Below the pieces are notes generated by a model. That model had not been told where the DNA came from. It saw only the letters and a list, made by a program, of their open reading frames with translations, and searched no databases. From IMG/VR virus record IMGVR_UViG_3300022602_003048, positions 1-64,000 of that record: a stretch of 64,000 nucleotides of DNA, one strand, 5' to 3'. Source of the DNA: a virus. The first letter of the stretch is position 1; each line of letters begins with the position of its first letter. The translations under genes were made by a program, and so were the position numbers. This document shows positions 1 through 22,294 of this stretch, piece after piece.

Positions 1-228
1 GATTTAAACACATTTATAGAAGATTACAATAATAGATACAGTACAGACGTATCGGAAAGATTTACCCACATTTTATACGAACTTTCTAAACCTCATAATC
101 CGAATGCAGCTAAGAAATTTTTACAAGTTAGCCATGATATAGATAAAATTAGAGAAGAATCTATATTTGATGTTATACCGGAATTGGAAATAATTAGGGA
201 TATGTACCCAGAAAGTCTTAGAGATTAG
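1..228 (+). CDS. C-terminus of a twitch-type radical SAM protein (5' cut by window)
   Basis: An open frame enters from the left edge and stops at TAG 226-228, giving 75 residues. The segment FLQVSHDIDKIREESI followed by a VIPEL motif matches the end of the intact twitch-type radical SAM protein at 6616-7884, which has FNQRLDKTRNQR then a VPEFLDYV end. Twitch-type proteins typically close with this 'LDkiR...PEl' element. The iron-sulfur region lies outside the window, so the assignment rests on this tail and on the next gene, also a radical SAM protein, starting 2 nt later. The family call is inference; the coding frame is clear. Confidence 0.55.
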   Translation, partial: DLNTFIEDYNNRYSTDVSERFTHILYELSKPHNPNAAKKFLQVSHDIDKIREESIFDVIPELEIIRDMYPESLRD

Positions 229-230
229 GA

Positions 231-1169
231 ATGACAGATATCATTAAGATAGATCAGCTTAGTCCTTCGTTGTATCTAACATGGGTAGTAAATAATATTT
301 GCACAAATTCGTGTTCGTATTGTCCGCCTGATTTGCACAACGGAAAGAATACTCATTACGAATGGGAAGATGCTGAGCGATTTTCTAAATATCTGATTAG
401 TAAATATTCAAAAATACAACTAGCATTATCGGGAGGTGAACCTACAATAAGTCCTTGGTTTAAAGATCTTGTAAAGCTTTACAGTGACTCAGGAAACCCA
501 ACCGGAATGACTACTAATGGTGCTAGAACAATTAGATATTATGATGAGATATCTAAGTATATGAGTTACATAGTTATGAGTTACCATCCTAGTTTTGAAG
601 ATCCAGAATTATTAGATAAAGCTTTAGCTTGTAGCAAGAATACATTGACCACTATATCTGTTATGTTCGATTCTAGATATTTTAATAAAAGTTTGGAATT
701 TTATGAAAAAGCTAAAATCTATAGTAGTATATCATTACAACCAATAATGATACAGTATTGGCCTGGAGTAGAAACTACTGCTGGAAGAGATTATACAGAA
801 GATCAATTATCTATATTAAAAAACCTAACAACAATCGAAGCCTCAGAAATTACGATGCCTAAAAATTTAGGAGAAATGGGAGGAATAGCAACTTATGACA
901 ACGGAACTATTTCTAGATTTGATGCTCAAATTTTAATTAATAATAAAAAAACTAATTTCTTTGGTTGGGAATGTGATATAGGCATGGAAAGTTTATTTGT
1001 TAGATATGACGGTACTATAAAAACAGCAAATTGCAATAGTGCTAAGATTATAGGAAATCTAAATAAATTTGAAGAGATAGAATGGCCAGATAAAACATTT
1101 ATTTGTCCTCAAACTTTCTGTCATTGTACTACTGATGTATATGTTAGTAAGAGACTAAAAAATGTATGA
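231..1169 (+). CDS. Radical SAM protein with SPASM-like C-terminal cysteines
   Basis: The cluster-binding motif C24-x3-C28-x2-C31 (CTNSCSYC) and an SGGEPT segment near residue 67 mark a radical SAM enzyme, which cleaves S-adenosylmethionine at a [4Fe-4S] cluster to make a 5'-deoxyadenosyl radical. Late cysteines (GWECDIGMES, TANCNS, CPQTFCHC) look like an auxiliary-cluster or zinc region. The protein at 5724-6623 has cysteines at the same positions (24/28/31) and the same tail pattern, so the two are paralogs. The gene overlaps the next one by 8 nt. The substrate is unknown. Confidence 0.85.
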   Translation: MTDIIKIDQLSPSLYLTWVVNNICTNSCSYCPPDLHNGKNTHYEWEDAERFSKYLISKYSKIQLALSGGEPTISPWFKDLVKLYSDSGNPTGMTTNGARTIRYYDEISKYMSYIVMSYHPSFEDPELLDKALACSKNTLTTISVMFDSRYFNKSLEFYEKAKIYSSISLQPIMIQYWPGVETTAGRDYTEDQLSILKNLTTIEASEITMPKNLGEMGGIATYDNGTISRFDAQILINNKKTNFFGWECDIGMESLFVRYDGTIKTANCNSAKIIGNLNKFEEIEWPDKTFICPQTFCHCTTDVYVSKRLKNV

Positions 1170-2478
1170 TATATTTTTCTTGGTAGATCATCGGTTATCT
1201 GATTCTATAAAAAAGCGATTTCCTTTAGCAAAAAAAGCATCTTCGATCGTTGATGCTAAGAATAAATCTATGACTAAGTTTTTTTGGGTCGTAGATCGTG
1301 ATTATAGTCTCTTAGAAGATTTTAAATTTGATTATAAAATACCTGATTGGGATCAGATGTATGTACATGTTTGGAAGACGGTATCTAATGATCATTCTGG
1401 AGTATATTTGATTCCAAAAAAGTATGAAATAACTAATAGAGAAGCTGAATATAGTTTTTTTATTAAAAGAAAAGAAATTGATGTAATCGCAAGTAAGAAA
1501 CAACCTTATGATATTTTTTATATATCAAAACCTAATGATTATATCAACGCACAAACAGAATCTACAACTAAAATGTTTTATGCCATTCTCGATGATGTTG
1601 TAGTTGATCCAAAATTTGATTTTACATATAATGTTCCTAACTGGGATCAAGAATATGTAAATGTATTTTCACAATCGGGAGAAGATACGCACGGTGGTGT
1701 CTATCTTATACCTAAGAATTATAATATTACGAAGAGAGAGGCCGAATATAATTTTTTTATAAACAAAAAAGATATTGACATTATAGCTTCTAAGCCAGGA
1801 TTTGAGATAGTCTTTATCAGCTACGACGAATCAAATGCTGAAGAAAATTGGAATAATTTAAGATACAGGTTTCCATATGCCAAACGTATAGATAAAGTTG
1901 ACGGCATACATAATGCCCATAAAGAAGCTGCCAAGATAACTGATACTAGTATGATATGGGTAGTAGACGGAGATGCGATTGTATTAGATGATTTTAATTT
2001 TGATATAGCTATACCTAAATGGGATAGAAACATTACACATGTTTGTAAAAGTAAAAATCCAATAAATGATTTAGAATATGGATATGGCGGTGTCAAACTA
2101 TTACCTAGAAAATTATTATTAGAGATGAGAACTGACACGGTTGATATGACCACTTCTATATCGAGAGATTTTAAAACTTTAGATATTGTTAGTAATATAA
2201 CAGCATTCAATACAGATACTTTTAATACTTGGAAAAGCGCATTCCGTGAATGTGTTAAATTATCTAGCAAAGTGATAGACGGACAAATAGATGCTGAAAC
2301 ACAAGATAGATTAGAAATCTGGTGTACTAAAGGACAGAATCAAGACTACGGTCATTGGGCATTGCTCGGAGCACAAGCAGGCAGGAAATATGGTTCACAA
2401 AATAAAGATAATAAAGAAATGTTGTTGAAGATAAATGATTGGAAATGGTTACAGGATGAATTCAACAGAAATAACTAA
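1162..2478 (+). CDS. Triplicated glycosyltransferase-like protein
   Basis: This 438-residue protein is built from three related units (about residues 1-112, 113-212 and 213-438). Each opens with YDIFF/YDIFY/FEIVF, continues to IPDWDQ/VPNWDQ/IPKWDR and has a GVYLIPK/GGVYLIPK/GGVKLLPR strand. Units 1 and 2 end almost identically (REAEYSFFIK/REAEYNFFIN, then IDVIASK/IDIIASK). The third unit is complete, with MIWVVDGDAIVLDDF resembling the DxD nucleotide-sugar site of GT-A enzymes. I recall single-unit homologs in marine phages, so units 1 and 2 look like degenerate duplications. The glycosyltransferase role is inferred from the DxD-like motif. It overlaps both neighbours. Confidence 0.6.
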   Translation: MYDIFFLVDHRLSDSIKKRFPLAKKASSIVDAKNKSMTKFFWVVDRDYSLLEDFKFDYKIPDWDQMYVHVWKTVSNDHSGVYLIPKKYEITNREAEYSFFIKRKEIDVIASKKQPYDIFYISKPNDYINAQTESTTKMFYAILDDVVVDPKFDFTYNVPNWDQEYVNVFSQSGEDTHGGVYLIPKNYNITKREAEYNFFINKKDIDIIASKPGFEIVFISYDESNAEENWNNLRYRFPYAKRIDKVDGIHNAHKEAAKITDTSMIWVVDGDAIVLDDFNFDIAIPKWDRNITHVCKSKNPINDLEYGYGGVKLLPRKLLLEMRTDTVDMTTSISRDFKTLDIVSNITAFNTDTFNTWKSAFRECVKLSSKVIDGQIDAETQDRLEIWCTKGQNQDYGHWALLGAQAGRKYGSQNKDNKEMLLKINDWKWLQDEFNRNN

Positions 2479-3085
2479 CATTAGACTTGATATAGATCAT
2501 ATTCTTTTCTGGATGGATGCTATCAGAAATAGTGCAGATAAAGATCGATCGTTAGAAAGTTTTTGGAAAGGCCAGATCAAGAGCAAAATATGGTTGATCG
2601 ATAACCTTATAAATTATATATCTCCTATAAACAATAATATTGTTATCCATGGGGGGTGGAATGGTGTATTAGCTAGCTTATTATTCCAGTCATCGATTAA
2701 ATTAGAAAAAATAATTTCAATAGATATAAATCCGGCTTGTAAAGAAATTGCCGAAACAATGAATAAGATAGAAGAGATAACTGGAAGGTTTCGAGCAGTT
2801 ACATCTGATATGGCAGAATACACCTATGATTTTAATCCCGATATAGTGATAAACACTAGTTGTGAACATATCACTCAGGAAACATATGAAATTTGGTTAT
2901 CAAAGGTTCCATTTAATTCTATAATAGTCCTACAAAGCAATGATTATTTTGATCTAGAGGAGCACATACGCTGTGCTAAAAATTTAGAAGAATTTATAGA
3001 TCAGAGTAAAATCAAAATTATTAGATCAGATATTTTACAACTGCCTAAATATAGTAGGTTTATGTTGATAGGATATAAGCAATGA
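2456..3085 (+). CDS. Class I methyltransferase-like protein
   Basis: I take ATG 2456 as the start; the gene then overlaps the upstream stop by 23 nt. The protein has a Rossmann-like order: SKIWLIDNL, a glycine-containing strand (VIHGGWNGVL), an acidic strand end (IISIDINPAC) and a DIVINTSCEH segment where many methyltransferases have their fourth strand. The same elements occur in the protein at 42555-43121 (SKLWLIKE, ILGSWYGNL, LIINTST, LVALQGRN), so they are distant paralogs. Usual SAM-binding signatures are imperfect, so methyl transfer is an inference. The stop overlaps the next ATG. Confidence 0.55.
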   Translation: MNSTEITNIRLDIDHILFWMDAIRNSADKDRSLESFWKGQIKSKIWLIDNLINYISPINNNIVIHGGWNGVLASLLFQSSIKLEKIISIDINPACKEIAETMNKIEEITGRFRAVTSDMAEYTYDFNPDIVINTSCEHITQETYEIWLSKVPFNSIIVLQSNDYFDLEEHIRCAKNLEEFIDQSKIKIIRSDILQLPKYSRFMLIGYKQ

Positions 3086-4617
3086 ATCATTCTATAATAT
3101 TTTCACCTAGAGGTAAAAGGTGGCAACGAGGTATGGGTGCTCACCGTATTGCTTCATTCTTACGATTGCAAGATTGGGACGTTGAAGTTATTGATTATGT
3201 AATATTCTGGGAATTAGAACAATTAAAAGAACTGGTCAAAAGTAGGGTAAATTCATCTACTGTATTTTTTGGATTTAGTACATTTTTTAATGTATGGTCT
3301 GGAACTATGAATGAGTTTACTAAGTGGTTAAAAGAGGAATATCCTCACATACCAATAGTTATAGGCGGCCAGAGTGTATTATTGACTGATGCAGAAAATA
3401 TAGATTATTGGGTAGACAGTTACGGTGAGAATGCGATAATAGCACTAACTAGAAAACTGATAGGAACTGATACTAGTCCTATAACATATGATGAAAATTA
3501 TAGTGATAAGAAAGTTATACGAGGACTAACGGCATATCCGTCAGCACCGCTATCGTCTTATTATATAGAATTTGAAAAACGAGATTTTATGCGTTCTACA
3601 GAAATGCCTACAATAGAAATTAGCAGAGGTTGTAAGTTTGCATGTGAATATTGTAATTTTCCTATATTAGGCGTAAAGGGTGATCAATCTAGCAGTCAAG
3701 ACAGTTTCCGTAGGCAGATAGAACATGCTTACGATAATTGGGGTATTAAAAATTGGATGATAGCAGACGAAACTTTTAACGATCGCACTGATAAGATTAG
3801 GAAATTTGCTGATGTTGTAGAAAAATTATCTTTCAAACCTTGGTTCTCGGCCTTTATTAGGGGAGATCTATTAGTAAGTCAGCGTAATCAATGGGATGAA
3901 TTGATACGCATGCAAGTACTCGGCCATTCAATGGGCATAGAAACTTTTAATCAGGAAAGCGGGAAGATCATCGGTAAAGGTATGGATCCTGACAGGATAA
4001 AAGAGGGATTGATTGAGTTTGAAAAATATACAGATATTCATGCACCTAGGAGATACAGGGCAAATATAAATCTTATTTGTGGCCTACCAAAAGAAACCGA
4101 ATCGTCATGGAATGATACAATTGATTGGTTGAATAAACATTGGATAAGACAAAGTGCTAGTGCTTGGATATTAGAGATAAGTGATTTTAATAATGATCTA
4201 ACTAATATGAGCAAATTTACTAGGAATTTAAAAAAACACGGCCTCAGGTCTATTGGAGCACAAGAAGCAAATGGTCAGGTACTAACTAGAGATGAAAACG
4301 GAAATCTACAATTTAAATCTACAGTGCAGTATGCTGGAGGTGTTGGCACTACCAGAGAAAAAATATGCATATGGGCCCACGATAATATGGATTGGTATCA
4401 AGCAGGAAATCTAGTTAGGAAATTTTATAGCAATGATGGATTTATCGGACGTTCTGGAAATAATCCTATTTTAACTGATAGACTTTTTGATTTCTATAAT
4501 ACTACTGAATATGAAGATATATGGGATAAAGACATGCGTGATGTAAACGACACTGCGCCTGTTTTTTTAAATATAATAAGAGATTATATTGATAATAAAA
4601 TAAATTGGAGATCTTGA
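3082..4617 (+). CDS. B12-binding-type radical SAM protein
   Basis: Residues 1-130 have the layout of a cobalamin-binding-type domain (SPRG near the start, FFGFSTFFNVW, VIGGQS). A radical SAM domain follows with C184-x3-C188-x2-C191 (CKFACEYC) and an ISRGC lead-in typical of B12-type radical SAM enzymes, which include methylases, mutase-like and oxidative enzymes. The classical DxHxxG cobalamin motif is not visible, so real cobalamin use is uncertain. ATG overlaps the upstream stop. The next gene starts with TTG directly after this stop. Confidence 0.75.
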   Translation: MNHSIIFSPRGKRWQRGMGAHRIASFLRLQDWDVEVIDYVIFWELEQLKELVKSRVNSSTVFFGFSTFFNVWSGTMNEFTKWLKEEYPHIPIVIGGQSVLLTDAENIDYWVDSYGENAIIALTRKLIGTDTSPITYDENYSDKKVIRGLTAYPSAPLSSYYIEFEKRDFMRSTEMPTIEISRGCKFACEYCNFPILGVKGDQSSSQDSFRRQIEHAYDNWGIKNWMIADETFNDRTDKIRKFADVVEKLSFKPWFSAFIRGDLLVSQRNQWDELIRMQVLGHSMGIETFNQESGKIIGKGMDPDRIKEGLIEFEKYTDIHAPRRYRANINLICGLPKETESSWNDTIDWLNKHWIRQSASAWILEISDFNNDLTNMSKFTRNLKKHGLRSIGAQEANGQVLTRDENGNLQFKSTVQYAGGVGTTREKICIWAHDNMDWYQAGNLVRKFYSNDGFIGRSGNNPILTDRLFDFYNTTEYEDIWDKDMRDVNDTAPVFLNIIRDYIDNKINWRS

Positions 4618-5733
4618 TTGTTTAGATTTGATGAGCTAAGGACAGTAGAATTAGAGATAACAAATCGATGCCAAGCTTCTTGTCCTATGTGTCCTAGAAA
4701 CATTCATAGTGGAATCGATAATCCATTTTTAAAAATCAATGATTGGACATATGAGGATTTCGTTACTATATTCGACGAAGAAGTTGTAAAACAAGTAAAG
4801 ACATTTCTATTTTGTGGTAGTTTTGGAGAACCTGTATTAAACAATGATATATTAAAGATGTGCAAATATATAAAAATTAAAAATCCAGAAGCACATGTTA
4901 TGATACACACAAATGGAAGTCTAAGAAAACCAGATTGGTGGGCAGAATTAGTAAGTGTCTTACCTAATAGTCATCAGGTATTTTTTGCTATTGACGGCAT
5001 TGATTCAAAAACACACGCTCTCCATCGAGTAGGTACCGATCTAAATAAAGTAATGGAAAACGCTAAAAGCTTTATTTCTGCAGGAGGGTATGCTGTATGG
5101 AACTTCATAAGATTTAAACATAATCAAGAACAAGTGATTGCTGCTAGATCTCTCTCACAGCAGCTAGGATTTAGTGAGTTTTCCATTAAAGATACTAGGA
5201 GATTTACTGGGCCGAATTTTAAAGTTTTAGATAGTAGTGGAGCTGTTACACATTATCTAGAATCTAATACAGACAATCTTATACATTATGTTGACAAAGG
5301 TGTAATAGAAAGTACGTATAATACCTGGTCAAAGAGTAATAATATCTATTGTTATGCAAAGGATGACAATTCTAGTATTTACATAGATGCACATCTAACT
5401 ATGTTACCTTGTTGCATATTATCATCTTTTTTATATACTAGTTACGATGAATCTATATTGCGCAAATATGGGTTATATAACGAGAAAACATCAGTTAATT
5501 CTCTCGGAATAAAATTAAAGAAACAAGTATATGAAATAATAAGTGAGATGGGCGGAATTGATAATCTAAATGCTCGAGATGTAGGAATTAAAGAAATAAT
5601 GAACTCTCTATCATGGCAAACTATATGGCAGGAAAAATGGAATAACCACGGATCTTTAGTCTGTATGTTGATGTGTAGTAAAGCAAGTCCTTTTATCTCT
5701 ATTGAAGGTCAGTTTTCAAATAATCAAGAATAA
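4618..5733 (+). CDS. Radical SAM protein, TTG start
   Basis: The frame opens at TTG 4618, directly after the upstream TGA, with GGAG 8 nt before it, so a TTG start is well supported. C18-x3-C22-x2-C25 (CQASCPMC) lies close to the N terminus as in SPASM/twitch-type enzymes, followed by FCGSFGEP and IHTNGS, both typical of that barrel. Later cysteines (CYAKDD, LPCCIL, LVCMLMC) could bind an auxiliary cluster. The last 10 nt overlap the convergent gene at 5724-6623, leaving no room for a terminator. Substrate unknown. Confidence 0.8.
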   Translation: MFRFDELRTVELEITNRCQASCPMCPRNIHSGIDNPFLKINDWTYEDFVTIFDEEVVKQVKTFLFCGSFGEPVLNNDILKMCKYIKIKNPEAHVMIHTNGSLRKPDWWAELVSVLPNSHQVFFAIDGIDSKTHALHRVGTDLNKVMENAKSFISAGGYAVWNFIRFKHNQEQVIAARSLSQQLGFSEFSIKDTRRFTGPNFKVLDSSGAVTHYLESNTDNLIHYVDKGVIESTYNTWSKSNNIYCYAKDDNSSIYIDAHLTMLPCCILSSFLYTSYDESILRKYGLYNEKTSVNSLGIKLKKQVYEIISEMGGIDNLNARDVGIKEIMNSLSWQTIWQEKWNNHGSLVCMLMCSKASPFISIEGQFSNNQE

Positions 5734-6623
5734 CTTGTTTTAGTTAAAGGTATATCTGCCGAACAAGTACACCAATTGCGTGTGCATACTATTGGATCCA
5801 CAGGTTTTTGGAAAGTACCATCATATATATTTCCTAAACTACCTCCTACTCTGCAAGTAGCGCGATGTACTTCGCCATCCCAGTTTATCATCAGGCTTTC
5901 CAATCCTGCATTACAGGTCCATCCTTTAAATTGATTCATATGCAATTTAATGATATCGTTAGCGTGCATTTCTTCAATGTCATCTATTGTGCAGTTTGGC
6001 CATATCGTAGCAGTTGAATTTTTGATCCATTCTAGATCATCGGGATGATATCGCATATCGTCAAATAAATCGTGGTTGCCTTCGGTCCAGCGTATCCTCC
6101 TCACAGCATAGGGTATCTTTAAAATTTCTAGATCTCGTTTTGCTGTCCTAACGTGATCCATGTGCTTATGGTGAGCCATTATGTGTACTAGCACCCTGTT
6201 AGTCCTCAGCATTTCAAATTCCATTATATTGTTTAGGCATCTTTCCCAGTCTTTTTCAAAATGGAGGCTAAAGACATATTGATCAACAATGTGCTGCTGT
6301 GATTCATACCATTTTGCGAGCCTAGTAGCATTGGTAGTCATGCTTACCCAAGTAATATTCTCAGCAGCGTGTATAGCAGCTAGAAGCTCTTCTATGCGAG
6401 GGTGTACGCTAGGTTCGCCTCCTGTTATGCTCAGACGCACAGGAGCTTCTAATTTGTTTAAAACCACCACTGTATTTTTAAGATTTTCTATGTCTGTGTG
6501 GGGACTATGATTATCGTGTATGTATTCTGGACAATAGGCACAATCTAGATTGCAGCGTTTTCCTAAATTCCATTCTATTTTTATCTTATCTTGATGAGGC
6601 CAGCGGCTGGTTATCTTATACAT
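5724..6623 (-). CDS. Radical SAM protein, paralog of the 231-1169 protein
   Basis: C24-x3-C28-x2-C31 (CNLDCAYC), SITGGEPSVHP and MTTNATR are classical radical SAM barrel elements. The C-terminal part GWTCNAGLESL, HRATC and CTRNWCTC lines up with the SPASM-like tail of the protein at 231-1169. Its ATG overlaps the stop of the twitch-type gene at 6616 by 8 nt, so it is the last gene of a three-gene minus-strand cassette (QueC-like, twitch radical SAM, this one). The G+C content appears slightly higher than in the first plus-strand genes. Confidence 0.85.
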   Translation of the reverse strand: MYKITSRWPHQDKIKIEWNLGKRCNLDCAYCPEYIHDNHSPHTDIENLKNTVVVLNKLEAPVRLSITGGEPSVHPRIEELLAAIHAAENITWVSMTTNATRLAKWYESQQHIVDQYVFSLHFEKDWERCLNNIMEFEMLRTNRVLVHIMAHHKHMDHVRTAKRDLEILKIPYAVRRIRWTEGNHDLFDDMRYHPDDLEWIKNSTATIWPNCTIDDIEEMHANDIIKLHMNQFKGWTCNAGLESLMINWDGEVHRATCRVGGSLGNIYDGTFQKPVDPIVCTRNWCTCSADIPLTKTSYS

Positions 6624-7884
6624 AGTCTAAAAATTCCGGTACAAAATGACTAATATGACGTTGATTTCTAGTCTTATCTAGTCGTTGATTAAACTCTAAA
6701 TACTTAGACCACAAATGGCTTTGATCTTTTCCGTTTAGATAATTTATATTATCTTGTATAAGTCCTAGCGTGATGTCTAATAATATTGGATGTTCTTTTA
6801 CTAACCGAAAATTTTTAATACGAGGTTTGATGTCTTCTAATTTTGCAATAGCTACTTTTTTTAAATCATTAGGTAGCACCTGTGCTGAAAGTAAGTTTGG
6901 ATGTTCGACTCTGTTTGAATAAAATACTATCCCTATATCGTCTAGAAAATATTCTATTATTTTATCTAAGGACATTATATTGCTTGCTTGTACACACACA
7001 GATCCAACTATTCTAGAAATATTAGGAATTTTTTGTATGATTTTTATGTTTTCAACTATAGTATTCCAATTAGAATTTCCTCTAATATGCTCATATACAT
7101 CGTCTAATCCATCAATGCTTACGTTGACTGCTACACTTTTAAATTTAGGCCAATAATCCCAAATATTTCTTCCTCCCTTTATACCTAATGTAGTTAGATT
7201 AGTAGCGTACTTGATTTCTATCTGATCTCCATATGGTGCAAGCTTATCTAATATACGATAATGTTGTGGATCCATAAGTGGTTCACCACCTGCAAATTCG
7301 GCTCTGCGGAAATAAGGTATAATCTTTTCAAAGCTTTCCCACCAGTTAGGATTGTCTTCAAACTTATCTAAATATGGTTTCTTTTTTAATCCTAATTTGT
7401 TTATAGCATCTACCATGTAGTTGCCTTCTTCTTTATAAAATTCTTCAACCTCGCTCCAGTCATCCCAGCTAGTACTATCAGTAGGTTGACACATGCGACA
7501 TTTTAGATTACAAAGGTTGTTTAACTTTATCTCCATAGTTGGTATCTCAAAAGGCATTGTGTAATCTTTTCTAAGCTGATTCAACGCATTAGGATATCTA
7601 TTGATCCTTGCTTCTGGGATTACTCCTTTAATATGCCGTTGTCTTAGTGATTCAACTCCTTGATCTTCTAATACAAAACATGGACTACATTCCTGGGGGC
7701 GTTCGTTATTTAGAACTTGATGTCGTATACGCCGCATGTTTTCATTGTTCCAGATCTCTTCTAGATTATTTTCTGTAATATTTCCAATAGGATGACTTCG
7801 GCAACAGACCTTAATAGACCCGTCTTCTCTAGTAGCTAGCCCAGTAAATGGATGCATACAAAATGTATTACTTTGATTGATCAA
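6616..7884 (-). CDS. Twitch-domain radical SAM protein
   Basis: The N terminus carries an auxiliary cysteine set (FCMHPF, KVCCRSHPIGN, ECSPC), then the radical SAM motif C125-x3-C129-x2-C132 (CNLKCRMC), AGGEPL and NVSIDG. The end (LDKTRNQR, VPEFLDYV) is typical of twitch-type proteins. The frame opens further at 7923, but I prefer TTG 7884, preceded by AGGAAAGAG and placing the protein just before the expected first cysteine; ATG 7857 is another option. It overlaps the stop of the PP-loop gene. Twitch proteins act on peptides or small molecules; the target here is unknown. Confidence 0.8.
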   Translation of the reverse strand: MINQSNTFCMHPFTGLATREDGSIKVCCRSHPIGNITENNLEEIWNNENMRRIRHQVLNNERPQECSPCFVLEDQGVESLRQRHIKGVIPEARINRYPNALNQLRKDYTMPFEIPTMEIKLNNLCNLKCRMCQPTDSTSWDDWSEVEEFYKEEGNYMVDAINKLGLKKKPYLDKFEDNPNWWESFEKIIPYFRRAEFAGGEPLMDPQHYRILDKLAPYGDQIEIKYATNLTTLGIKGGRNIWDYWPKFKSVAVNVSIDGLDDVYEHIRGNSNWNTIVENIKIIQKIPNISRIVGSVCVQASNIMSLDKIIEYFLDDIGIVFYSNRVEHPNLLSAQVLPNDLKKVAIAKLEDIKPRIKNFRLVKEHPILLDITLGLIQDNINYLNGKDQSHLWSKYLEFNQRLDKTRNQRHISHFVPEFLDYV

Positions 7885-8605: not shown

Positions 8606-8649
8606 TGAAATATTTATAGGGTTCTTCAGTGCAAATAAATATTTCAATG
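8603..8649. promoter_or_regulatory. Divergent late promoters in a 14-bp inverted repeat
   Basis: CATTGAAATATTTA (8603-8616) is exactly mirrored by TAAATATTTCAATG (8636-8649). Each arm contains a T4-type late-promoter core TAAATA, five nucleotides, then the ATG of the gene on that side (8605 minus, 8647 plus). In T4 the late start point lies a few bases after TATAAATA, so both transcripts would begin at or next to the ATG. Confidence 0.7.
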
Positions 8650-13974: not shown

Positions 13975-13978
13975 TGAT

Positions 13979-13984
13979 TACTTA
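13979..13984 (-). promoter_or_regulatory. Late promoter core TAAGTA, near-leaderless
   Basis: On the minus strand TATAAGTA is followed by four bases and ATG 13974. The spacing matches the class of late promoters seen at 8605, 8647, 22294 and 46859, where transcription should begin at the start codon. Confidence 0.5.
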
Positions 13985-14021
13985 TAAAGAATTTAATTGC
14001 TGCAATTTTTCTTGGATAATT

Positions 14022-15301: not shown

Positions 15302-16708
15302 ATGGTTGATAAATTCATAAAAAAGAACCAAAAAGATATATTATTTTGCATAGTCGATAATCATGATTCCTGTCAAGATGGTTGGTCTAGAGAAATATCA
15401 AAGAATCTATCAGATTTTATGATTTTTAAGATCAATCAACATAGTTATGATATTTTTATAGGAAGCGACGAAGACGATCTTTTAAGATCAGCAGAGGATT
15501 ATAGATATGCAGTAGTAATCGCCTCAGGAACTTCTTTTAAAAGATCTGATCGAATATTCCAAGCAATTGAAGACAAATGCAAAGAAGACTTTTTCCTAGC
15601 TGGACATATATTAGATAGAGAAGAATACTATTATGAATTACATCATCAGTTTTATATAGTCAATTTATTAGAATACAGATCCTTAGGTTGTCCCGATATA
15701 GGTAAAGCAACAGAAGATAAACATACACAGTTCCTTCCAGAAAAAAGTGTTGATTTTTTATATGGTGAGAAAAAAATACCAACATATATAAAACCCGGAA
15801 ACATACTAAAAGAATATACAGGAAAATCACACGGGTGGAATATCTTAGCCGAGGCTCTGCACAATGGAAAAACATTGGTTGATCTAGGAGAAAAAATACG
15901 CAATAATAAGCGGTATTTTTATTATGAATATAATCATGTTTTTATAAAGCATATTCCAGAAGTATTTTATGATCAATTCTTTTGTAATAATTTTTTTGCA
16001 GGATGGAATTCTGATAGAGTGTTAGATAGGATAGATTTTGACGGACCTGTTGAGCAGTATATAACAGTCGGTATTGGGTTTAATTGGATTAAAAATCTTA
16101 TATTATTAGATTACAATTTAGATACTAGAGTAGTTTTTACTGATATAAATTTAAGTTGTTTAACTTTTATGGAAAAAATGATTAGGAATTGGGATGGTAA
16201 AGATTATACAGATTTTTATAAGAAAAATATTCCTAGATTACCAAATGGATTTAGAGAATTAAATGAAGATTATATTAGAGAAGTTGACAGTCAATGGAAT
16301 CAATTTGTTTCAAAATTTACTTCCTGGCATGAAATTTGGAATAAAATACGCCAGCTAAAATATGATTTTGAATTGATAGATTATACTTCAAATTATGATA
16401 TCGATTGGATAGAACCTAACAAAAAAACTTTAATAAATCTAAGTAATCTTTTTAATTATGTTTCTGGATCTCAATCTCAAAGTGTAAAATATCGTATAGC
16501 ATGTGAGAATAGATTAATAAGAAAATTGAAAGATAAAAATCCAGAAATTATATTGATGTTGACTACTAGGGCAGCTGATGGTTTTTCTTCTGATAGAGAC
16601 AGGATTTTGTTAGGTAAAGTATCGGAATATAATTTAACTGATATTAACTTTTTAAAATCGCCAGCATGGCATCTCAACGAATGGTATTCTAATAAAATAT
16701 TAGATTAG
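15302..16708 (+). CDS. Large two-part protein with methyltransferase-like C-terminal half
   Basis: Residues 1-110 look like an alpha/beta domain (KDILFCIVDNH, YAVVIASGTSF). From about residue 240, YITVGIGFNWIKNLILLDYN then TRVVFTDINLSC looks like a Rossmann-type glycine loop and acidic strand end, and ILMLTTRAADG near the end could be a later strand. A SAM-dependent methyltransferase is the best guess. ATG is two bases after the upstream stop; GTGGAAG before it is a weak ribosome site. It converges with 16732-17376, with 23 bases between the stops. Confidence 0.45.
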   Translation: MVDKFIKKNQKDILFCIVDNHDSCQDGWSREISKNLSDFMIFKINQHSYDIFIGSDEDDLLRSAEDYRYAVVIASGTSFKRSDRIFQAIEDKCKEDFFLAGHILDREEYYYELHHQFYIVNLLEYRSLGCPDIGKATEDKHTQFLPEKSVDFLYGEKKIPTYIKPGNILKEYTGKSHGWNILAEALHNGKTLVDLGEKIRNNKRYFYYEYNHVFIKHIPEVFYDQFFCNNFFAGWNSDRVLDRIDFDGPVEQYITVGIGFNWIKNLILLDYNLDTRVVFTDINLSCLTFMEKMIRNWDGKDYTDFYKKNIPRLPNGFRELNEDYIREVDSQWNQFVSKFTSWHEIWNKIRQLKYDFELIDYTSNYDIDWIEPNKKTLINLSNLFNYVSGSQSQSVKYRIACENRLIRKLKDKNPEIILMLTTRAADGFSSDRDRILLGKVSEYNLTDINFLKSPAWHLNEWYSNKILD

Positions 16709-16731: not shown

Positions 16732-17376
16732 TTACGGTAAATCGTTTAGTGTAATGTATCTTCCGTGTATGTTAGCTTTTTTAGCAGCATCGTCTATAAT
16801 TTTCCTCCATTCTTCAGTAGAATCATATCTTGACACTATGATATGATATCTATCTTGGTTGCTTGTATTGACAAGACGATGATGATAACTTACATTTATA
16901 GTAAATGCATCACCGTCGTTCATTTCTAGATTAGGATGATCGTCTCCCCAATACCATGTACACCCTTCAGGATTATTTAATACCAGGTTTATGTTTTCTA
17001 ATAATCGTGTATTACCGTCACTGTGTAATCCGATGTAACCACCGGCTTCTAATAGCATAAATCTAACCCTACCATAATGTTTAGAGGGAAATCTATTTAA
17101 GAAAAAATCATGTGTAGTTGGACATTCGTATGCTGCTTTTGTCCAGTGCATATCTTTGTCCGCATCTTGTCCACTGCTGTATCCGTATGTTTTCCAACCG
17201 CCGGTTTTGTCTTCTCCTAACCCGTATAATGTTAGAGATTTCCAGCCCTTTGAATCGTCACTTCTGTGATATACAAATCTGTCTTTTAATTTATTTGCTT
17301 CTTTTAGCATTTCTTTATGAGGGAAATCGATATCTAATTTTAAAAATCGAGCTTCTGATTCAAAAAAATGTTTCAC
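16732..17376 (-). CDS. Fe(II)/2OG-type oxygenase, GTG start
   Basis: YIGLHSDGNTRLLENINLVL holds HxD with the following strand, and NVSYHHRLVNTSNQDRYHIIV holds the distal His and Arg, typical of the aspartyl/asparaginyl hydroxylase group. The GTG start (17376) overlaps the TGA of the upstream gene (GTGA), which argues for translational coupling of two different oxygenases. It is 214 residues, a normal size for a single-domain enzyme. Confidence 0.7.
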   Translation of the reverse strand: MKHFFESEARFLKLDIDFPHKEMLKEANKLKDRFVYHRSDDSKGWKSLTLYGLGEDKTGGWKTYGYSSGQDADKDMHWTKAAYECPTTHDFFLNRFPSKHYGRVRFMLLEAGGYIGLHSDGNTRLLENINLVLNNPEGCTWYWGDDHPNLEMNDGDAFTINVSYHHRLVNTSNQDRYHIIVSRYDSTEEWRKIIDDAAKKANIHGRYITLNDLP

Positions 17377-17900
17377 GACAGTATTTTACCTTCAGCGTGT
17401 AATTTTAAAATATCTCCCCAAGGTGCTAATAGGGAAATTTGTAAAGCATCTCTGGTGTTTAAATCATTTCTAACACCATGCAGTATTTGTGCATTGACTA
17501 TAGTAGGACATCTATAATAGTGTTCATATAATATTTTTGTTGGATTTTGATAAGTCCCCTCAGCATAATAGATAGGAGCAAATATTTCCGGCTGTATCGG
17601 AAATATAATAACAGCTTGTCTAACTGCATCTAGGTGTGCATCTAATCCACCATCGGGTGGCATTCTGAGTATCTCAGCTCTTACAATTTTTAAAGCAGGT
17701 GAAAAGATTGAAATTAGTTCTTTGATATAATCATTTTCCATGATTATATCGCCAGAAAGCACGTAATACATAGTATCTTTCTTATCAACAGATACTGATT
17801 TTGTATCCCAATTATCTGCCGAATCGCATATTTCTTTTAGTTTTAATTTATCATATTTGACTTCCGGCAATTCTATCACATATTCGTTTGCGACTACCAA
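17373..17900 (-). CDS. Fe(II)/2OG-type oxygenase, TTG start
   Basis: GGLDAHLDAVRQAVIIF gives HxD, and QILHGVRNDLNTRDALQIS gives the distal His and Arg. IVRAEILRMPPDGG is the strand-turn before the metal pair in this group. Start TTG 17900 has GGAG eight bases upstream, and a late-promoter TAAATA lies at 17919-17924, giving a normal short leader. It is followed by 16732-17376 with a four-base overlap. Confidence 0.65.
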   Translation of the reverse strand: MVVANEYVIELPEVKYDKLKLKEICDSADNWDTKSVSVDKKDTMYYVLSGDIIMENDYIKELISIFSPALKIVRAEILRMPPDGGLDAHLDAVRQAVIIFPIQPEIFAPIYYAEGTYQNPTKILYEHYYRCPTIVNAQILHGVRNDLNTRDALQISLLAPWGDILKLHAEGKILS

Positions 17901-17918
17901 ATGTTGCTCCTTTTGAAA

Positions 17919-17949: not shown

Positions 17950-17973
17950 TCTTTAGATAGCGAGGGAAAGCAC

Positions 17974-18807
17974 ATGCAATACCATTTACATGACAATGGA
18001 TGGACGGTTATTTTAGATAATTTTGATTTTAAAACAGCGACGCAAGAAGATATAAATCAAATAGCTAAGCTGATAGCAAATAATACTTGCGTAGTAGCTA
18101 AAAATCAATCACTAACAATAGATGATGAATTGCGTATTGCTAATATGTTTAAAAATCCACAGCCTTTTATAAGAGAACACGATCCAAATAATCATCATTT
18201 TTGGGTAGAAGGCACTGGGGGAACTATACAGAGAGTTACTGGCGAGCTAAACGAACATGGATTTCCGGGCATAGCAGGTTATGTTGACGAAATGTTATGG
18301 CATTGTAATGAACCACAGAAGGAGACTCGATCTCCCATCATATGGTTATACGGTGTAAAGGGCACAAAAGGATCTAGGACATCTTGGAATAATAATATAA
18401 TGTCTTATAATGATCTAAGTCAGGAAATGAAAGATAAATTATCTACATTGCAAATAATATGTATGACAGGACTTTCATTGAAGGATGAAAGAGATGGTAT
18501 TCCTGTTGATACATATACACCAAATATAGTACATACAAACAATGCAGGGAAGACAGGATTGTTTTTCCCATTTTTACAAATGAGTCATTTTAAGAGAATG
18601 TCTGTTGAAGAAAGCAGAAAAATAATGGATCCATTAGCTGAACATACTATACAAGAGAAATATTGTTATCATCATGATTGGGATGACGGCGATGTTGTTA
18701 TTGCAGAACAATGGTTAGGTATCCATAAGCGTTGGCCATTTGAAGGAATCGCTACTAGATTGTTACATAGAATAGCATTTGATTTTCCAGATCAGGATTA
18801 TGTATGA
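17974..18807 (+). CDS. TauD/TfdA-like dioxygenase with altered metal motif
   Basis: The 277-residue length, the NGWTVILDNFDF opening, EMLWHCNEP, TGLFFPF and the end QWLGIHKRWPFEG ... RLLHRIAFD match the TauD/TfdA family, which hydroxylates small acids with 2-oxoglutarate. The usual first metal motif WHxD reads WHCN here, followed by Glu, so the carboxylate ligand has moved or is lost; a changed reaction, as in halogenase-like enzymes, is conceivable but unproven. ATG is preceded by GAGGGAAAG. The stop overlaps the next start (ATGATAA). Confidence 0.75.
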   Translation: MQYHLHDNGWTVILDNFDFKTATQEDINQIAKLIANNTCVVAKNQSLTIDDELRIANMFKNPQPFIREHDPNNHHFWVEGTGGTIQRVTGELNEHGFPGIAGYVDEMLWHCNEPQKETRSPIIWLYGVKGTKGSRTSWNNNIMSYNDLSQEMKDKLSTLQIICMTGLSLKDERDGIPVDTYTPNIVHTNNAGKTGLFFPFLQMSHFKRMSVEESRKIMDPLAEHTIQEKYCYHHDWDDGDVVIAEQWLGIHKRWPFEGIATRLLHRIAFDFPDQDYV

Positions 18808-19517
18808 TAAAAAATATTTTAGAATCACCGATGATAACAGATCCATGGAAACATCAAATTATAGATAAATTTTTTGATGAGAGTGATTTTAAAAAAATAT
18901 GGGATGCTTCTAAAAAATTACAAGAAACATATAGAGATAAAACTATTACATCTAACGATTGTTTAACGTTGGCGGAGGTGTTAGATATAATTGGTGATGA
19001 CGTTTTTGATATTATACTAAAAAGTAATACAGAAATATTAGATCATATAACAGATATAACAAATCTATATCCTAATCATTATAAACATAATGAATATGTT
19101 TCTTTTCCAACATTTCATATATTACCTCCTAATACTGGTTACCAAAAAATACATGATGAATCTAGTGATAAGACAATAAGTATTGTAGTTTACCTCTATC
19201 CGGAAAACAGTACCGGGACTTTTTTATACAAATCAAAAGATCGAGATTCTCTAGTTAAAGAAATAAGTTGGAAACCAAATAGTGCTATGTTATTTTGTGG
19301 AGAAAGTGATATTACTTGGCATGATTTTTGCTCTAGAGAATATCCTAGAGTAACACTTAATTATTTTGTTCGTTCTATATCATCTAGAGATTTAAAAGAA
19401 AAAGATGACAGATATTATTGGGAATTTGGTAATGGAATGAACGCATATATACCAAAGAATGTACCATCGGAGAAATTAAATTTACTCAAAAGCGGTATAT
19501 TATTTAGAAATTTATAG
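18804..19517 (+). CDS. Fe(II)/2OG-type oxygenase (prolyl 4-hydroxylase-like)
   Basis: FHILPPNTGYQKIHDESSDK gives HxE (or a shifted HD) metal ligands, VVYLYPENSTGTFLY is the following strand pair, and DITWHDF then RVTLNYFVR hold the distal His and Arg. The layout follows prolyl 4-hydroxylase-like enzymes, in which HxD is usual; HDE is a variant. It overlaps the TauD-like gene by four bases and the convergent minus-strand gene at 19512 by six. Confidence 0.65.
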   Translation: MIKNILESPMITDPWKHQIIDKFFDESDFKKIWDASKKLQETYRDKTITSNDCLTLAEVLDIIGDDVFDIILKSNTEILDHITDITNLYPNHYKHNEYVSFPTFHILPPNTGYQKIHDESSDKTISIVVYLYPENSTGTFLYKSKDRDSLVKEISWKPNSAMLFCGESDITWHDFCSREYPRVTLNYFVRSISSRDLKEKDDRYYWEFGNGMNAYIPKNVPSEKLNLLKSGILFRNL

Positions 19518-20144
19518 TAATTTTTGCGTTAGATAGTTTATATTATTAGAGTTACTATCTTTTAAATAGAATATAAAACACATTGCTTTATTTTTTTCAT
19601 CATTATTTCGCAGAGAATGATATTTTTCGACATTAAATGCATAAACATCTCCAGGCGATACAAGAAAACTATCTAAAACTATAGTTTCTATAGACGAATC
19701 TAAAGATCCGAACTCTCTAATATTAAACAACTCGTCGTCTTTTAGTCTAAGATTTTCATCTTTTATGTCGTAAAATTCAACATATGACGGATCACTAGTT
19801 TCTCTTATTATACATATATTCCAACGAGCATTCTTAGAATGTATATGTCTATGTTTTTCAAAATTGCTAGCGTATGTTATTCCTATAAATGGTTCTAATC
19901 CTGCATCTAATAAAAGTTCTTCTAATTCTGGAAAAATATTACATATATTGCTCCATTTTAAATCTATTTTACGGTCTACATTTAGTTGTTCATCTAGTAA
20001 TAAAAATTGATGATCTGTTGGGTAATCTTTACATATTGCCCAATAACTTGGAATTATTGGTGATATAATAACATTTATGTAGTCTTTGATATTATTTGAG
20101 ATAGAAATTATTTTCTTAATCTGATCGTTATCTTGGTTGAGTAT
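19512..20144 (-). CDS. Hidden cupin/2OG-oxygenase-like gene without a canonical start
   Basis: The frame is open on the minus strand from 20144 to the TAA at 19512, about 210 codons, but contains no ATG or GTG and only TTG at 19730. Upstream of that TTG it still reads like protein: YWAICKDYPTDHQFLLLDE, GLEPFIGITYASNFEKHRHI, NARWNICIIRET. GDVYAFNVEKYHSL resembles the distal His region of neighbouring oxygenases. The TAAATA late motif (20142-20147) abuts the 5' end, so transcription seems intact. It may use a rare start codon (ATA or ATT), have lost its start, or carry a sequence error. Confidence 0.55.
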   Translation of the reverse strand: MLNQDNDQIKKIISISNNIKDYINVIISPIIPSYWAICKDYPTDHQFLLLDEQLNVDRKIDLKWSNICNIFPELEELLLDAGLEPFIGITYASNFEKHRHIHSKNARWNICIIRETSDPSYVEFYDIKDENLRLKDDELFNIREFGSLDSSIETIVLDSFLVSPGDVYAFNVEKYHSLRNNDEKNKAMCFIFYLKDSNSNNINYLTQKLL

Positions 20145-20229
20145 TTATGTTTGACAACATTTTGTATTCCTGTGCGACGGTTAGCTTTTAAGATATTTTC
20201 TAAAAGTTATTTATTGACTGTAATAAATA
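20142..20229. promoter_or_regulatory. Divergent late-promoter motifs
   Basis: Minus-strand CATAAATA (core 20142-20147) sits at the 5' end of the start-less gene. Plus-strand AATAAATA (core 20224-20229) is eight bases before ATG 20238. The bases between show no gene I can support. Confidence 0.5.
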
Positions 20230-20237
20230 TTCCTGAC

Positions 20238-20828
20238 ATGGATTATAAGAGAATAATAGCAGCATCACTAAATCTCGATATTGATTATGCACAGATGTCT
20301 AAAGAATTAGTTAGATCTATGTCTAGTAATGCGTGTGTTCCTTTTTCCTATGACGGATATACGGCATATTCTTTATTCCTAAGAGAAAGTACAGAACCAA
20401 CTACTTATAGTTATAGGGGTGCCAAATCTGCCGATATAGCATCGTGGTCTTGGAATGAGTTATTAGATATTCCCTACACAATAAAGGCTATTGAAGAATT
20501 ACCATTTAATAAATTAGGTACAGTGAGGGTAGTTTATTTTCCAAATATTCCCTGTAAGATACACACTGATTGGGATGATCCAACTGATTATGAACATACA
20601 CTTGGATTGAGTTTAATACCACAAACAGCTGATACAGTCTGTAGAGTATATATTGATAAAGAAGATCGATGGGTAGAAATACCAGGTAATGCTATGTTAC
20701 TCAACGATTCTGTACCACATGCAGTTCCTGAAGCAAAAGGAATTAGAATTACGATGAGATTATTTGGCGAAATCGATTACGATTGGTTTAAAGATAAAAT
20801 ATCTCTCAAAGATTCTTATTTTTTTTAA
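20238..20828 (+). CDS. Fe(II)/2OG-type oxygenase (aspartyl hydroxylase-like)
   Basis: PCKIHTDWDDPTDYEHTLG provides HxD, and NDSVPHAVPEAKGIRITMRL provides the distal His and Arg. VVYFPNIP and the IPGNAMLLND turn complete the fold. I start at ATG 20238 rather than the earlier frame opening at 20133, because the upstream part lies in the divergent promoter region and a late-promoter core ends at 20229. It converges with the ANL-type gene with a four-base overlap. Confidence 0.7.
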   Translation: MDYKRIIAASLNLDIDYAQMSKELVRSMSSNACVPFSYDGYTAYSLFLRESTEPTTYSYRGAKSADIASWSWNELLDIPYTIKAIEELPFNKLGTVRVVYFPNIPCKIHTDWDDPTDYEHTLGLSLIPQTADTVCRVYIDKEDRWVEIPGNAMLLNDSVPHAVPEAKGIRITMRLFGEIDYDWFKDKISLKDSYFF

Positions 20829-22294
20829 TTTTGTCGGCAAAGTATCCTGATAGCTTCAGGATCAAATTTAATTCCGGCAAAGAAATTAGATCTCGGCGAT
20901 ATTATTTTTTTTGATATATTATATACATCGCTTGCTAACATTTTTTGTATATTATGATTGATATAATCTAAATCTTTGTTTTCATTTAACCTTATATAGA
21001 TACTATCTTGTTCACTGTCTATTATAATATCAAAATCTATATCTTTTTTTAAATTTATTGTCTTTTCTATAACTTCATTTAATAAATCTATATAGATAGT
21101 CTTATTTTTTATTCTATAGACATTATCTCTTCCTAAGAAATAATAATTTCCATCTATTATTTTAAACTTGTCTCCGGTCTTTATTCTAGACCCATCCGGC
21201 ATTTCGATAATGATATAATTTTCATTATCTATGTGTACTTTATAAAAGTTATCTAAAGTTTTTCCCATAAATGAAGGATTATAACTCTTATAATTATCTT
21301 TAGTTATTTCTGGTAAAAAAACAAATCCTTTTATCTCATTTGCTCCAAAGATCGATACTATTTTATAACCAAAATTCCCCACTAGATTGTTTATTTCTTC
21401 TTGTTTAATTTTTGATAAAGCATAGATAATTAAATCGTCGTGTTGCTTATCTTCGATCTTTAAAAAATTGTTCAAAATTTCTAATTGATCAGAAAACATC
21501 AAACATCTGTTTATTTTTTCTTTTTGGAATAATTCTATCCATTTACAGATCATGGGACCTTCTGCATCCATGAATTTACTTGAGTCATATTGCATGAATT
21601 TAAAAGGAGCATGATAATGATGCGCACAATATTTCATGACAGGTAAGAAATATATTGTACATACGCTTCCATGATGTAATCCTTTAGAATGGAAGCATCT
21701 ATCTTCAGATTTTAATTGATAAACTTTTTTTTCTCTTTCTATTGTATCATAAAACCAACTGTGTGTGTTTTCTATTATTTTAGGAGTACCCGTTGTTCCT
21801 GAACTTGTTGCTAATAATATAATATCATCTTCCTTAGCCCATGTAGGCGTAGGATTTCCAGAATAATTGTATTCATATGCATCTTTTATATTTAAGATTT
21901 TGTCTGGATAAAACTTCTCAAATAACGGAACGCTACCATCTTGTATAATATAATCAATCTCTCCATAGATAGATAGCTTTTTAATAGTTATATCTGATTG
22001 AGGATAATCGGAAACAACAAATGTTAGGCCTAATTCAGCACATGCATAAAACCATGTTATATAATCTGGCCAGAACCAAATACAAAATATTACTTTTTGA
22101 CCGGGCCTGCATTTTTTTACATTAATTAGATATTCTTTAGCATGATCGATTGATTTTATGATATCATCATAGTGTGTTACTGTTTTCTTGATATTTCCTA
22201 TATTATCGTCTATGACAGATAATTTTTTATCCGTCATAGACAATGCTGTCACTATTAGATCTTTATGTAAACAATTCCGATCGATTATTTTCAT
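20825..22294 (-). CDS. ANL-superfamily adenylating enzyme (acyl-CoA synthetase-like)
   Basis: ATSSGTTGTPK (residues 162-172) is the ATP-binding P-loop of acyl-CoA synthetases and nonribosomal adenylation domains. YKIVSIFGANE matches the A5 region, and GDKFKIIDGNYYFLGRDN the hinge motif before the C-terminal lid. Length 489 is normal. Such enzymes activate a carboxylate as an acyl-adenylate. The partner thiolation protein is not visible. Its ATG lies four bases after a late-promoter core (22299-22304). It is the last gene of the AT-rich island. Confidence 0.85.
   Translation of the reverse strand: MKIIDRNCLHKDLIVTALSMTDKKLSVIDDNIGNIKKTVTHYDDIIKSIDHAKEYLINVKKCRPGQKVIFCIWFWPDYITWFYACAELGLTFVVSDYPQSDITIKKLSIYGEIDYIIQDGSVPLFEKFYPDKILNIKDAYEYNYSGNPTPTWAKEDDIILLATSSGTTGTPKIIENTHSWFYDTIEREKKVYQLKSEDRCFHSKGLHHGSVCTIYFLPVMKYCAHHYHAPFKFMQYDSSKFMDAEGPMICKWIELFQKEKINRCLMFSDQLEILNNFLKIEDKQHDDLIIYALSKIKQEEINNLVGNFGYKIVSIFGANEIKGFVFLPEITKDNYKSYNPSFMGKTLDNFYKVHIDNENYIIIEMPDGSRIKTGDKFKIIDGNYYFLGRDNVYRIKNKTIYIDLLNEVIEKTINLKKDIDFDIIIDSEQDSIYIRLNENKDLDYINHNIQKMLASDVYNISKKIISPRSNFFAGIKFDPEAIRILCRQN

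Follow-up and report, generated by a model that had tools for sequence, protein, structure and literature searches.

The window, a stretch of 64,000 nucleotides of viral DNA, begins at the end of its record, and because the record stops at window base 1, the left part of the gene island described here is missing. In positions 1-22294 we found 26 ORFs (Table 1), packed with intergenic gaps of 73 bases or less and with many overlaps. The original prediction had called this region an AT-rich island, and this held for most of its length, with a GC content of 0.29-0.36 compared to 0.40-0.50 in the remaining window, except for the part at 10-14 kb (0.39-0.41). No tRNA genes were found within the window, and none of its island proteins exceeded the hydropathy threshold for a membrane segment.

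Table 1. Genes of the island and of its boundary in the window (values given after family, model or profile names are E-values)
Feature	Position	Strand	Evidence
3' end of edge-cut gene (75 aa)	1..228	+	no Pfam, PHROG or family-model match
rS1, radical SAM, CTNSCSYC	231..1169	+	PF04055 4.2e-11; nearest island families rS1/N16/rS4
GT, N40 family, 438 aa, internal repeats	1162..2478	+	N40 family 5.2e-82
MT, putative class I methyltransferase (INTSCEHI)	2435..3085	+	own family 2.1e-85; weak MTase profile
B12rS, B12-binding + radical SAM	3082..4617	+	PF04055 1.6e-13, PF02310 1.2e-4
rS3, radical SAM, TTG start	4618..5733	+	PF04055 9.6e-11; 10/10 fuller islands
rS4, radical SAM	5724..6623	-	PF04055 2.5e-13; 10/10 fuller islands
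rS5, N-terminal SPASM/twitch radical SAM	6616..7923	-	PF13186 5.4e-11, PF04055 2.9e-10; 10/10 fuller islands
PP-loop ATPase, QueC-like C-terminal Cys motif	7868..8647	-	ATP_bind_3 0.0046; QueC-like PHROG 1.1e-5
OG1, Fe/2OG (Asp/Asn hydroxylase type)	8629..9318	+	PF05118 0.0034 (weak); 10/10 fuller islands
Kin1, pseudokinase, protein-kinase fold	9315..10001	+	Kin1+Kin2 profile vs TTK kinase 6.7e-7
OG2, Fe/2OG-type	9958..10545	+	alignment: invariant H117-x-D119...H174; 10/10 fuller islands
OG3, OG2 paralogue	10533..11057	-	invariant H102-x-D104...H154; OG2 profile 5.3e-21
OG4, Fe/2OG-type	11057..11872	-	alignment: H178-x-D180...H237, R250; 414 viral relatives
rS6, zinc-ribbon (Zn_ribbon_HMPTM) + radical SAM	11850..12917	-	PF23545 4.8e-14, PF04055 1e-13
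rS7, rS6 tandem paralogue, Zn_ribbon_HMPTM + radical SAM	12910..13974	-	PF23545 8.6e-16, PF04055 3.9e-15
Kin2, pseudokinase, Kin1 paralogue	13974..14720	+	Kin1+Kin2 profile vs TTK; 10/10 fuller islands
GNAT/FeeM-like acyltransferase candidate	14713..15300	+	FeeM 0.015, below cut-off; 8/10 fuller islands
X468, two-domain: N-terminal GT-A-like (weak), C-terminal class I methyltransferase-like	15302..16708	+	AlphaFold pLDDT 90.5
OG5, Fe/2OG (Asp/Asn hydroxylase type)	16732..17376	-	PF05118 5e-14
OG6, candidate Fe/2OG	17373..17900	-	no family match
TauD-like Fe/2OG	17974..18807	+	PF02668 6e-21; HxD ligand motif is H110-x-N112
OG7, candidate Fe/2OG	18804..19517	+	no convincing family match
OG8, degenerate OG5/N22 relative	19512..20096	-	family models 7e-6 and 3.7e-5; no HxD/E
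OG9, Fe/2OG-type candidate, small conserved family	20133..20828	+	family model 9.3e-71; HxD/E...H in 7/7
ANL, AMP-binding (adenylate-forming) enzyme	20825..22294	-	PF00501 5.4e-11; optional, in few relatives
Small tail-fibre-like protein, Mtd_N domain	22327..23094	-	PF18454 2.5e-10; candidate substrate or partner
Thymidylate synthase (ThyX-like by sequence), backbone boundary of insertion site	23134..24009	-	

Eight radical SAM genes had been predicted in the island. Seven intact ones (231-13974) scored above the Pfam PF04055 cut-off, each with the CxxxCxxC motif, which was kept in nearly all relatives of these proteins. The edge-cut ORF (1-228) matched no family model, and its assignment as a radical SAM C-terminus was not confirmed; the true eighth radical SAM gene of the window was a QueE-like gene located outside the island, at 31462-32316 on the minus strand. 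rS5 was a clear member of the NCBIfam family N_Twi_rSAM (NF033640; E 1.5e-95, 320.6 bits vs a cut-off of 170), a model that names no reaction, and it is one among many radical SAM genes in the module. In the comparison with defence families, pVip (prokaryotic viperin) was matched at the generic radical SAM level only, far below the viperin cut-off, and B12rS gave a partial match to the candidate defence family PDC-M51A. A known anti-phage defence system was rejected on these grounds; PADLOC gave no match for the island PP-loop protein.

In a single sequence, the HxD...H motif is not significant, since it was present in 21-79% of shuffles; thus, we took the invariance of the motif within families as evidence for Fe/2OG-type enzymes. 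The HxD/E...H facial triad was conserved in the families of OG2, OG3 and OG4 (alignments) and of OG1, OG5 and OG9 (motif search). It was missing from OG8, which also had no ATG, GTG or TTG start upstream of 19730, and it was replaced by HxN in the TauD-like gene, as in 38 of 50 unique sequences. Instead of the nine or ten oxygenases originally proposed, seven or eight of the ten candidates were supported, whereas OG6 and OG7 had no convincing family match.

The predicted QueC-like PP-loop ATPase and ANL adenylating enzyme were both recovered by profile matches, and the SGGxDS motif of the former was kept in 23/23 relatives. The two kinase-like paralogs indeed share the protein-kinase fold, but the catalytic HRD Asp was absent in all 61 Kin sequences (S, A or T instead), hence they are pseudokinases and active kinases were ruled out. 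The DFG Asp was replaced by N in 35 of the 61 (Kin2 type) and retained in 26 (Kin1 type). The GNAT-like protein was kept as a candidate, with a weak FeeM match under the cut-off as its sole support. As to the three proposed methyltransferase/glycosyltransferase-like proteins, a methyltransferase fold was found in X468 and a weak MTase profile match in MT, a conserved island gene (8/10 fuller islands), whereas GT gave nothing above the Pfam cut-off and is glycosyltransferase-like by sequence reading only. The predicted structure of X468 matched NNMT in Foldseek (4.8e-4) and aligned weakly over its full length to LH3; its full-length BFVD matches came from uncultured Caudovirales only. N1, a family present in relatives and absent from the window, has a PLP fold-type I structure (Foldseek NifS 8.7e-9, pLDDT 91.3), with the Schiff-base Lys motif SxSKG in 66/66. 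Sulfotransferase and SGNH-hydrolase candidates were also found among the optional genes.

The island families co-occurred in other viral contigs, with the gene order largely kept. At least 8 of the 22 island families were present in 72 of the best 80 loci of the OG4 relatives, which ruled out scattered independent genes, and 13 syntenic loci were recovered with rS7 as the query; chance clustering was ruled out by this conserved co-occurrence in many viral contigs. Island-bearing records, up to 353 kb in size, had 7-17 radical SAM genes each, mostly within 20-30 kb, while the island-free relative G020 (229,675 bases) had one. The core common to 10/10 fuller islands comprised OG1, OG2, OG4, Kin2, rS3, rS4, rS5, N7 and N15. 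The optional finishing genes differed from phage to phage, and radical SAM alleles were shuffled within islands, which may indicate several partly separate pathways. Bacterial viruses in their hundreds, uncultured and often giant, carry this 20-30 kb block of more than 20 unusual enzymes. The results support the view that the island forms a single system with a new combination of parts, and the best explanation of positions 1-22294 is that they make up the right-hand portion of a mobile module, ~20-30 genes in size, in the host-recognition region of large T4-like phages.

Our search of 50,697 phage records for cultured relatives gave none for X468, OG4, N1, rS5, Kin2, GNAT and B12rS at the E limits used (1e-8 for rS5), and one weak partial match for rS7. 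Relatives of X468 and N1 were also absent from 84,980 species genomes, in a pattern-seeded scan that could miss distant homologues, and a bacterial origin of the island was rejected on the basis of these scans. These viruses probably make an elaborate chemical decoration, one not known from any of the cultured viruses or sequenced bacteria searched.

The insertion site has the thymidylate synthase and the Mtd_N fibre at one end, and tail-fibre repeats together with glycosyltransferase-like genes at the opposite end. An 82% identical thymidylate synthase homologue was located at the equivalent boundary in G015, and in island-free relatives the flanks were joined or had only the glycosyltransferase-like genes between them. 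The region is thus variable, lies at tail-fibre genes and has empty or alternative contents in relatives, as is characteristic of a host-recognition cluster in T4-like phages. Island genes were present in 20 of 22 loci with the Mtd_N fibre gene and in 3 of 21 without it (Fisher p 3.6e-7, a value that overstates independence, as the loci are related). The three exceptional loci had no Mtd_N fibre in the stretch examined, and in one of them (L173) the fibre lies further on. The same association would also be expected from a joint exchange of fibre and island as one host-range cassette.

The location at the tail-fibre site, the co-travel with Mtd_N and the lack of a clear membrane protein or of any sign of a DNA-modification pathway narrow down the target. 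Most likely, the decoration is put on the fibre encoded alongside the island, or otherwise on the surface of the host. We favour the fibre as the predicted target of a sequential post-translational pathway, with a probability of about 0.38. The island enzymes would act one after another in the cytoplasm of the infected cell: Fe/2OG enzymes would hydroxylate side chains, cross-linking, epimerisation or C-methylation of unactivated carbons would fall to the radical SAM enzymes of the SPASM/twitch and B12 types, and carboxylate activation to the PP-loop and ANL enzymes. A phage-variable decoration could then be finished by the PLP enzyme, GNAT, methyltransferases and glycosyltransferase-like proteins, in some cases also by sulfotransferase or SGNH proteins, with the pseudokinases as putative substrate-binding scaffolds, and the product may alter receptor binding or shield the virion. 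The catalytic motifs (Fe-S and Fe-binding) were near-invariant across the families. There is precedent for protein modification by QueC-family PP-loop proteins (PMC11996544, PMC13279940). The island PP-loop protein shares the QueC-like Cys motif with the proteins of QueC-family protein deazaguanylation (type IV CBASS Cap9) and of qatABCD; unlike in these systems, no Cap10/TGT-like or Qat partners were seen. On the other hand, about ten radical SAM enzymes far exceed any protein modification pathway known to us, and small-molecule pathways are the more usual place for ANL, PP-loop and PLP enzymes. We put forward only tentatively the fuller proposal of a virus-only mobile pathway in which pseudokinases guide some ten radical SAM enzymes and eight of the Fe/2OG type to put a complex variable adduct on the receptor-binding fibre. 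If true, no virus would be known with a more elaborate post-translational chemistry than this hypermodification.

Alternatively, the island may remodel the host cell surface (O-chain, inner core or lipid) during infection, for example to block superinfection; the neighbouring fibre would recognise the corresponding host, and the two would be exchanged as a unit. This agrees with its position in the host-recognition region next to glycosyltransferase-like genes, with the GNAT, SGNH-hydrolase and sulfotransferase candidates among the optional genes, and with the likeness of the zinc-ribbon pair rS6/rS7 to tetraether lipid synthase (Tes), whose score lay far below the cut-off. For the equivalent region of pelagimyophages, surface change and coinfection avoidance were proposed in PMC7029224. 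However, clear membrane proteins are lacking from the island, the annotated parts showed neither a flippase nor a polymerase, and the glycosyltransferase-like genes occupy the equivalent site also without the island. We also know of no described glycan pathway that employs about ten radical SAM enzymes together with about eight of the Fe/2OG type, and consider this explanation rather doubtful.

The ANL, PP-loop, PLP (N1), B12 radical SAM, Fe/2OG and methyltransferase proteins resemble a biosynthetic gene cluster, with finishing genes that vary between phages, as could be expected if the product were a small metabolite with an amino acid, peptide or nucleoside as its base, kept in the cytoplasm or set free at lysis and acting, for example, as an antimicrobial, a signal, a siderophore or an inhibitor of an enzyme. 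Such a product seems unlikely, as genes for export, for carrier proteins or for recognisable self-resistance were not found, the distribution was phage-only within the searches made, and the link with the tail-fibre site is tight. Radical SAM enzymes, C-methylation by B12 radical SAM enzymes and Fe/2OG hydroxylation also occur together in proteusin RiPP pathways (polytheonamide type), the SPASM/twitch type among them, so a hypermodified RiPP-like system with a precursor encoded elsewhere in the genome could be considered. Unlike in those pathways, no precursor, recognition domain or dehydratase was found in the island. As originally argued, the intergenic space is virtually nil and no short precursor peptide gene was found, the gaps being tiny in ten relatives as well as in the window. 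The one minor conserved small gap ORF of the ten islands (31 aa, '...DPFIYK') was present in few contigs and was not convincing as a precursor, and Pfam gave no PqqD-like match at E 0.05, a search that remote forms could escape; we consider this option improbable. Modification of DNA or RNA is the least probable, for although phage hypermodification pathways employ PLP, radical SAM, acetyltransferase and kinase enzymes and a QueE-like gene lies in the window outside the island, the catalytic residue is missing from the kinase-like proteins, Pfam does not place the 2OG proteins with TET/JBP, and the island is inserted optionally at the tail-fibre region of backbones that are otherwise similar, rather than being a fixed trait of the replication module.

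Some of the most difficult C-H reactions in biology are carried out by radical SAM and Fe/2OG enzymes, and about twenty such enzymes in a conserved module point to a viral natural product or surface modification of a class not known so far. This would bear on the host choice or rival exclusion of large environmental phages, and the island families make up a large untapped enzyme set.

The statement that no phage cluster with this combination is known should be toned down: sets of radical SAM genes had already been reported in PMC5332604 and PMC7029224, where the system was not recognised. The pelagimyophage host-recognition clusters of PMC7029224, whose radical SAM cassettes are named in passing, resemble the island as a variable T4-like region at tail-fibre genes with glycosyltransferases; in contrast, the passages concerned describe no Fe/2OG expansion, pseudokinases, PP-loop or PLP enzyme, or conserved module. 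The T4-like ocean virus TARA_ERS488813_N000010 (PMC5332604) has 12 radical SAM genes, a count similar to that of the island-bearing records, but no single island is shown there, and the likeness is by gene number alone. These genes were discussed as Fe-S cluster metabolism, for which our results offer an alternative reading. No description of the system was found in the literature on this enzyme combination, in a search that covered few preprints and no subscription papers. The DNA polymerase of the window was closest to those of rhizobial jumbo phages (50.7%), which is a mere hint on the host.

The enzyme island is a real module. A query with the radical SAM gene rS7 recovered 13 viral contigs with near gene-for-gene equal neighbourhoods, mostly at about 40-78% protein identity. 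In IMG/VR, the oxygenase candidate OG4, the two-domain protein X468 and the family N1 had 414, 58 and 264 relatives, respectively, and among the best 80 of the 414 OG4 relatives, 72 carried at least 8 of the 22 island families within 10 kb (median 11). Gene content was compared across ten fuller islands, 19-32 kb in length. All ten carried OG1, OG2, OG4, Kin2, rS3, rS4, rS5, N7 and N15, and nine carried Kin1, X468, OG5 and N16. Radical SAM matches numbered 7-15 in each of fourteen records (67-353 kb), mostly in a single block; among nine further records, G015-G019 and G022-G023 held 8-17, G021 held two and the island-free G020 (229,675 bases) held one.

The IMG/VR virus record is linear, with a length of 93,537 bases, and the window is its first 64 kb; the record end cuts off the island on its left side. 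The 26 ORFs across the island are separated by gaps of at most 73 bases. Its GC content is 29-36%, rising to 39-41% at 10-14 kb, where OG3, OG4, rS6 and rS7 form a block; the remaining window has 40-50%. The T4-type DNA polymerase in the window is closest to those of two rhizobial jumbo phages, Phosso (50.7%) and Atu_ph07 (46.5%).

Positions of features in the window and in related contigs
Feature	Position	Strand	Remark
Island	1-22294		
Kin1	9315-10001		
OG4	11057-11872	-	
rS7	12910-13974	-	
Kin2	13974-14720		
X468	15302-16708		
TauD-like gene	17974-18807		
OG8	19512-20146	-	
Mtd_N fibre	22327-23094	-	
Thymidylate synthase	23134-24009	-	
Conserved backbone gene	25472-26695		adjoins island site
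QueE-like radical SAM gene	31462-32316	-	outside island (phrog_2076 9.2e-52)
Cytidylyltransferase-like protein	49826-51346	-	phrog_3041 1.4e-13
Tail-fibre protein	52788-57710	-	1640 aa; resembles collagen-like minor tail proteins
Extra cassette (L333)	G015:C1:21507-29814		
Secreted protein (predicted)	L003:13459-14010		outer-membrane-like
31-aa conserved ORF	L085:20718-20810; L160:7668-7760; others		C-terminal end DPFIYK

The original prediction listed eight radical SAM genes in the island. Seven intact ones were confirmed, including one B12-binding, one SPASM/N_Twi and two with an HMPTM zinc ribbon, but the ORF at the edge received no family assignment. Nine or ten Fe/2OG oxygenases had also been proposed; we count ten candidates, with support for OG1-OG5, the TauD-like gene and OG9. 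OG5 and the TauD-like gene passed Pfam, and OG1 gave a weak Pfam match. The HxD...H motif, which in one sequence is not significant by itself, was invariant or nearly so in the separate alignments of OG2, OG3 and OG4, and was kept in the family of OG9. OG6 and OG7 are candidates only. OG8 is open for about 200 codons, with no ATG, GTG or TTG before 19730, and may be either a degenerate oxygenase relative or a gene using an unusual start.

Of 50 unique sequences in the TauD-like family, 38 carried H-x-N rather than H-x-D. The two His and two Arg were invariant, and HxD copies occurred only in contigs also holding an HxN copy. This distribution needs about two changes on a tree. The pattern suggests a stable paralogue whose iron coordination has changed; altered chemistry, e.g. 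halogenase-like, is possible.

The kinase-like paralogues Kin1 and Kin2 did match a kinase as a joint profile (TTK, 6.7e-7), but the catalytic HRD Asp is gone, and they are pseudokinases. Throughout 61 sequences of these two paralogous families the HRD Asp was S, A or T and the His position an invariant Lys, within an invariant K-x-[SAT]-[MLI]-[HY]-P at the place of the HRD loop; the DFG Asp was Asn in all 35 Kin2-type sequences. In its C-terminal part, the predicted model of X468 (pLDDT 90.5) resembled a class I methyltransferase; for the N-terminal part, no more than a weak alignment, over the full length, to lysyl hydroxylase LH3 was seen. The close structural relatives of X468 were proteins from uncultured Caudovirales. 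N1 (F12, 281 aa), present in many relatives and missing from the window, is a PLP fold-type I enzyme, as indicated by a Foldseek match to NifS (8.7e-9) and an SxSKG motif kept in 66/66 sequences.

Thymidylate synthase borders the island on one flank, together with a small fibre that has an Mtd_N domain; at the opposite flank, in G015, G004 and G005, the glycosyltransferase-like family N40 and more such genes are followed by tail-fibre-like genes. Among backbone relatives with enough sequence, island genes were found in 20/22 loci with the Mtd_N fibre vs 3/21 lacking it (Fisher p 3.6e-7). As the loci are related to one another, this p-value does not describe independent samples. One locus scored as lacking the fibre, L173, has it further on. 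None of the window's island proteins appeared membrane-bound.

The module, its site, the accompanying fibre, the preserved catalytic motifs and the pseudokinases are observations; beyond these, the island enzymes would form a cytoplasmic stepwise modification pathway, with the fibre as our first choice of target. This preference is based on location, co-inheritance, the lack of membrane or export genes and peptide-side-chain precedents for most enzyme classes, as well as on QueC-family proteins, which can modify proteins (PMC11996544, PMC13279940). Remodelling of the host surface would account for location and co-inheritance almost as well, and production of a small metabolite comes next. Nucleic acid modification is unlikely, as is a classical RiPP; no precursor peptide was found for the island.

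Among 50,697 phage records, X468, OG4, N1, rS5, Kin2, GNAT and B12rS had no match and rS7 one weak partial match; X468 and N1 also had none in genomes of 84,980 species, in scans seeded by short patterns, which distant relatives may escape. For a single T4-like ocean virus, an earlier paper reported 12 radical SAM genes and treated them alongside Fe-S metabolism (PMC5332604). A pelagimyophage study describes a variable host-recognition cluster, mentions radical SAM cassettes and reports freshwater members without radical SAM proteins (PMC7029224). Our literature search found this enzyme set nowhere described as one system. The island location is of a known kind and the gene set is new, from which it follows that the chemistry is presumably new.

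The island is mobile and mosaic. In the site comparison, anchored on the adjoining backbone gene, thymidylate synthase directly abuts tail-fibre repeats in L234 and L219, L182 and L207 hold glycosyltransferase-like genes only, and other backbone relatives carry the island. In addition to the island, the closest relative, G015, has an AT-rich cassette (about 8 kb) carrying radical SAM and SGNH-like genes; this extra cassette lies between the backbone gene N91 and thymidylate synthase, where the window lacks it. Allele distances of OG2, Kin1 and X468 correlate (Spearman 0.60-0.65) and those of rS4 and N7 hardly do so with most other island genes, which shows internal reshuffling. The predicted secreted protein of L003 is inserted in one island, with an oxygenase gene on either side. 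The DPFIYK-ending ORF lies near island edges, and longer versions with the same terminus occur in other contigs.
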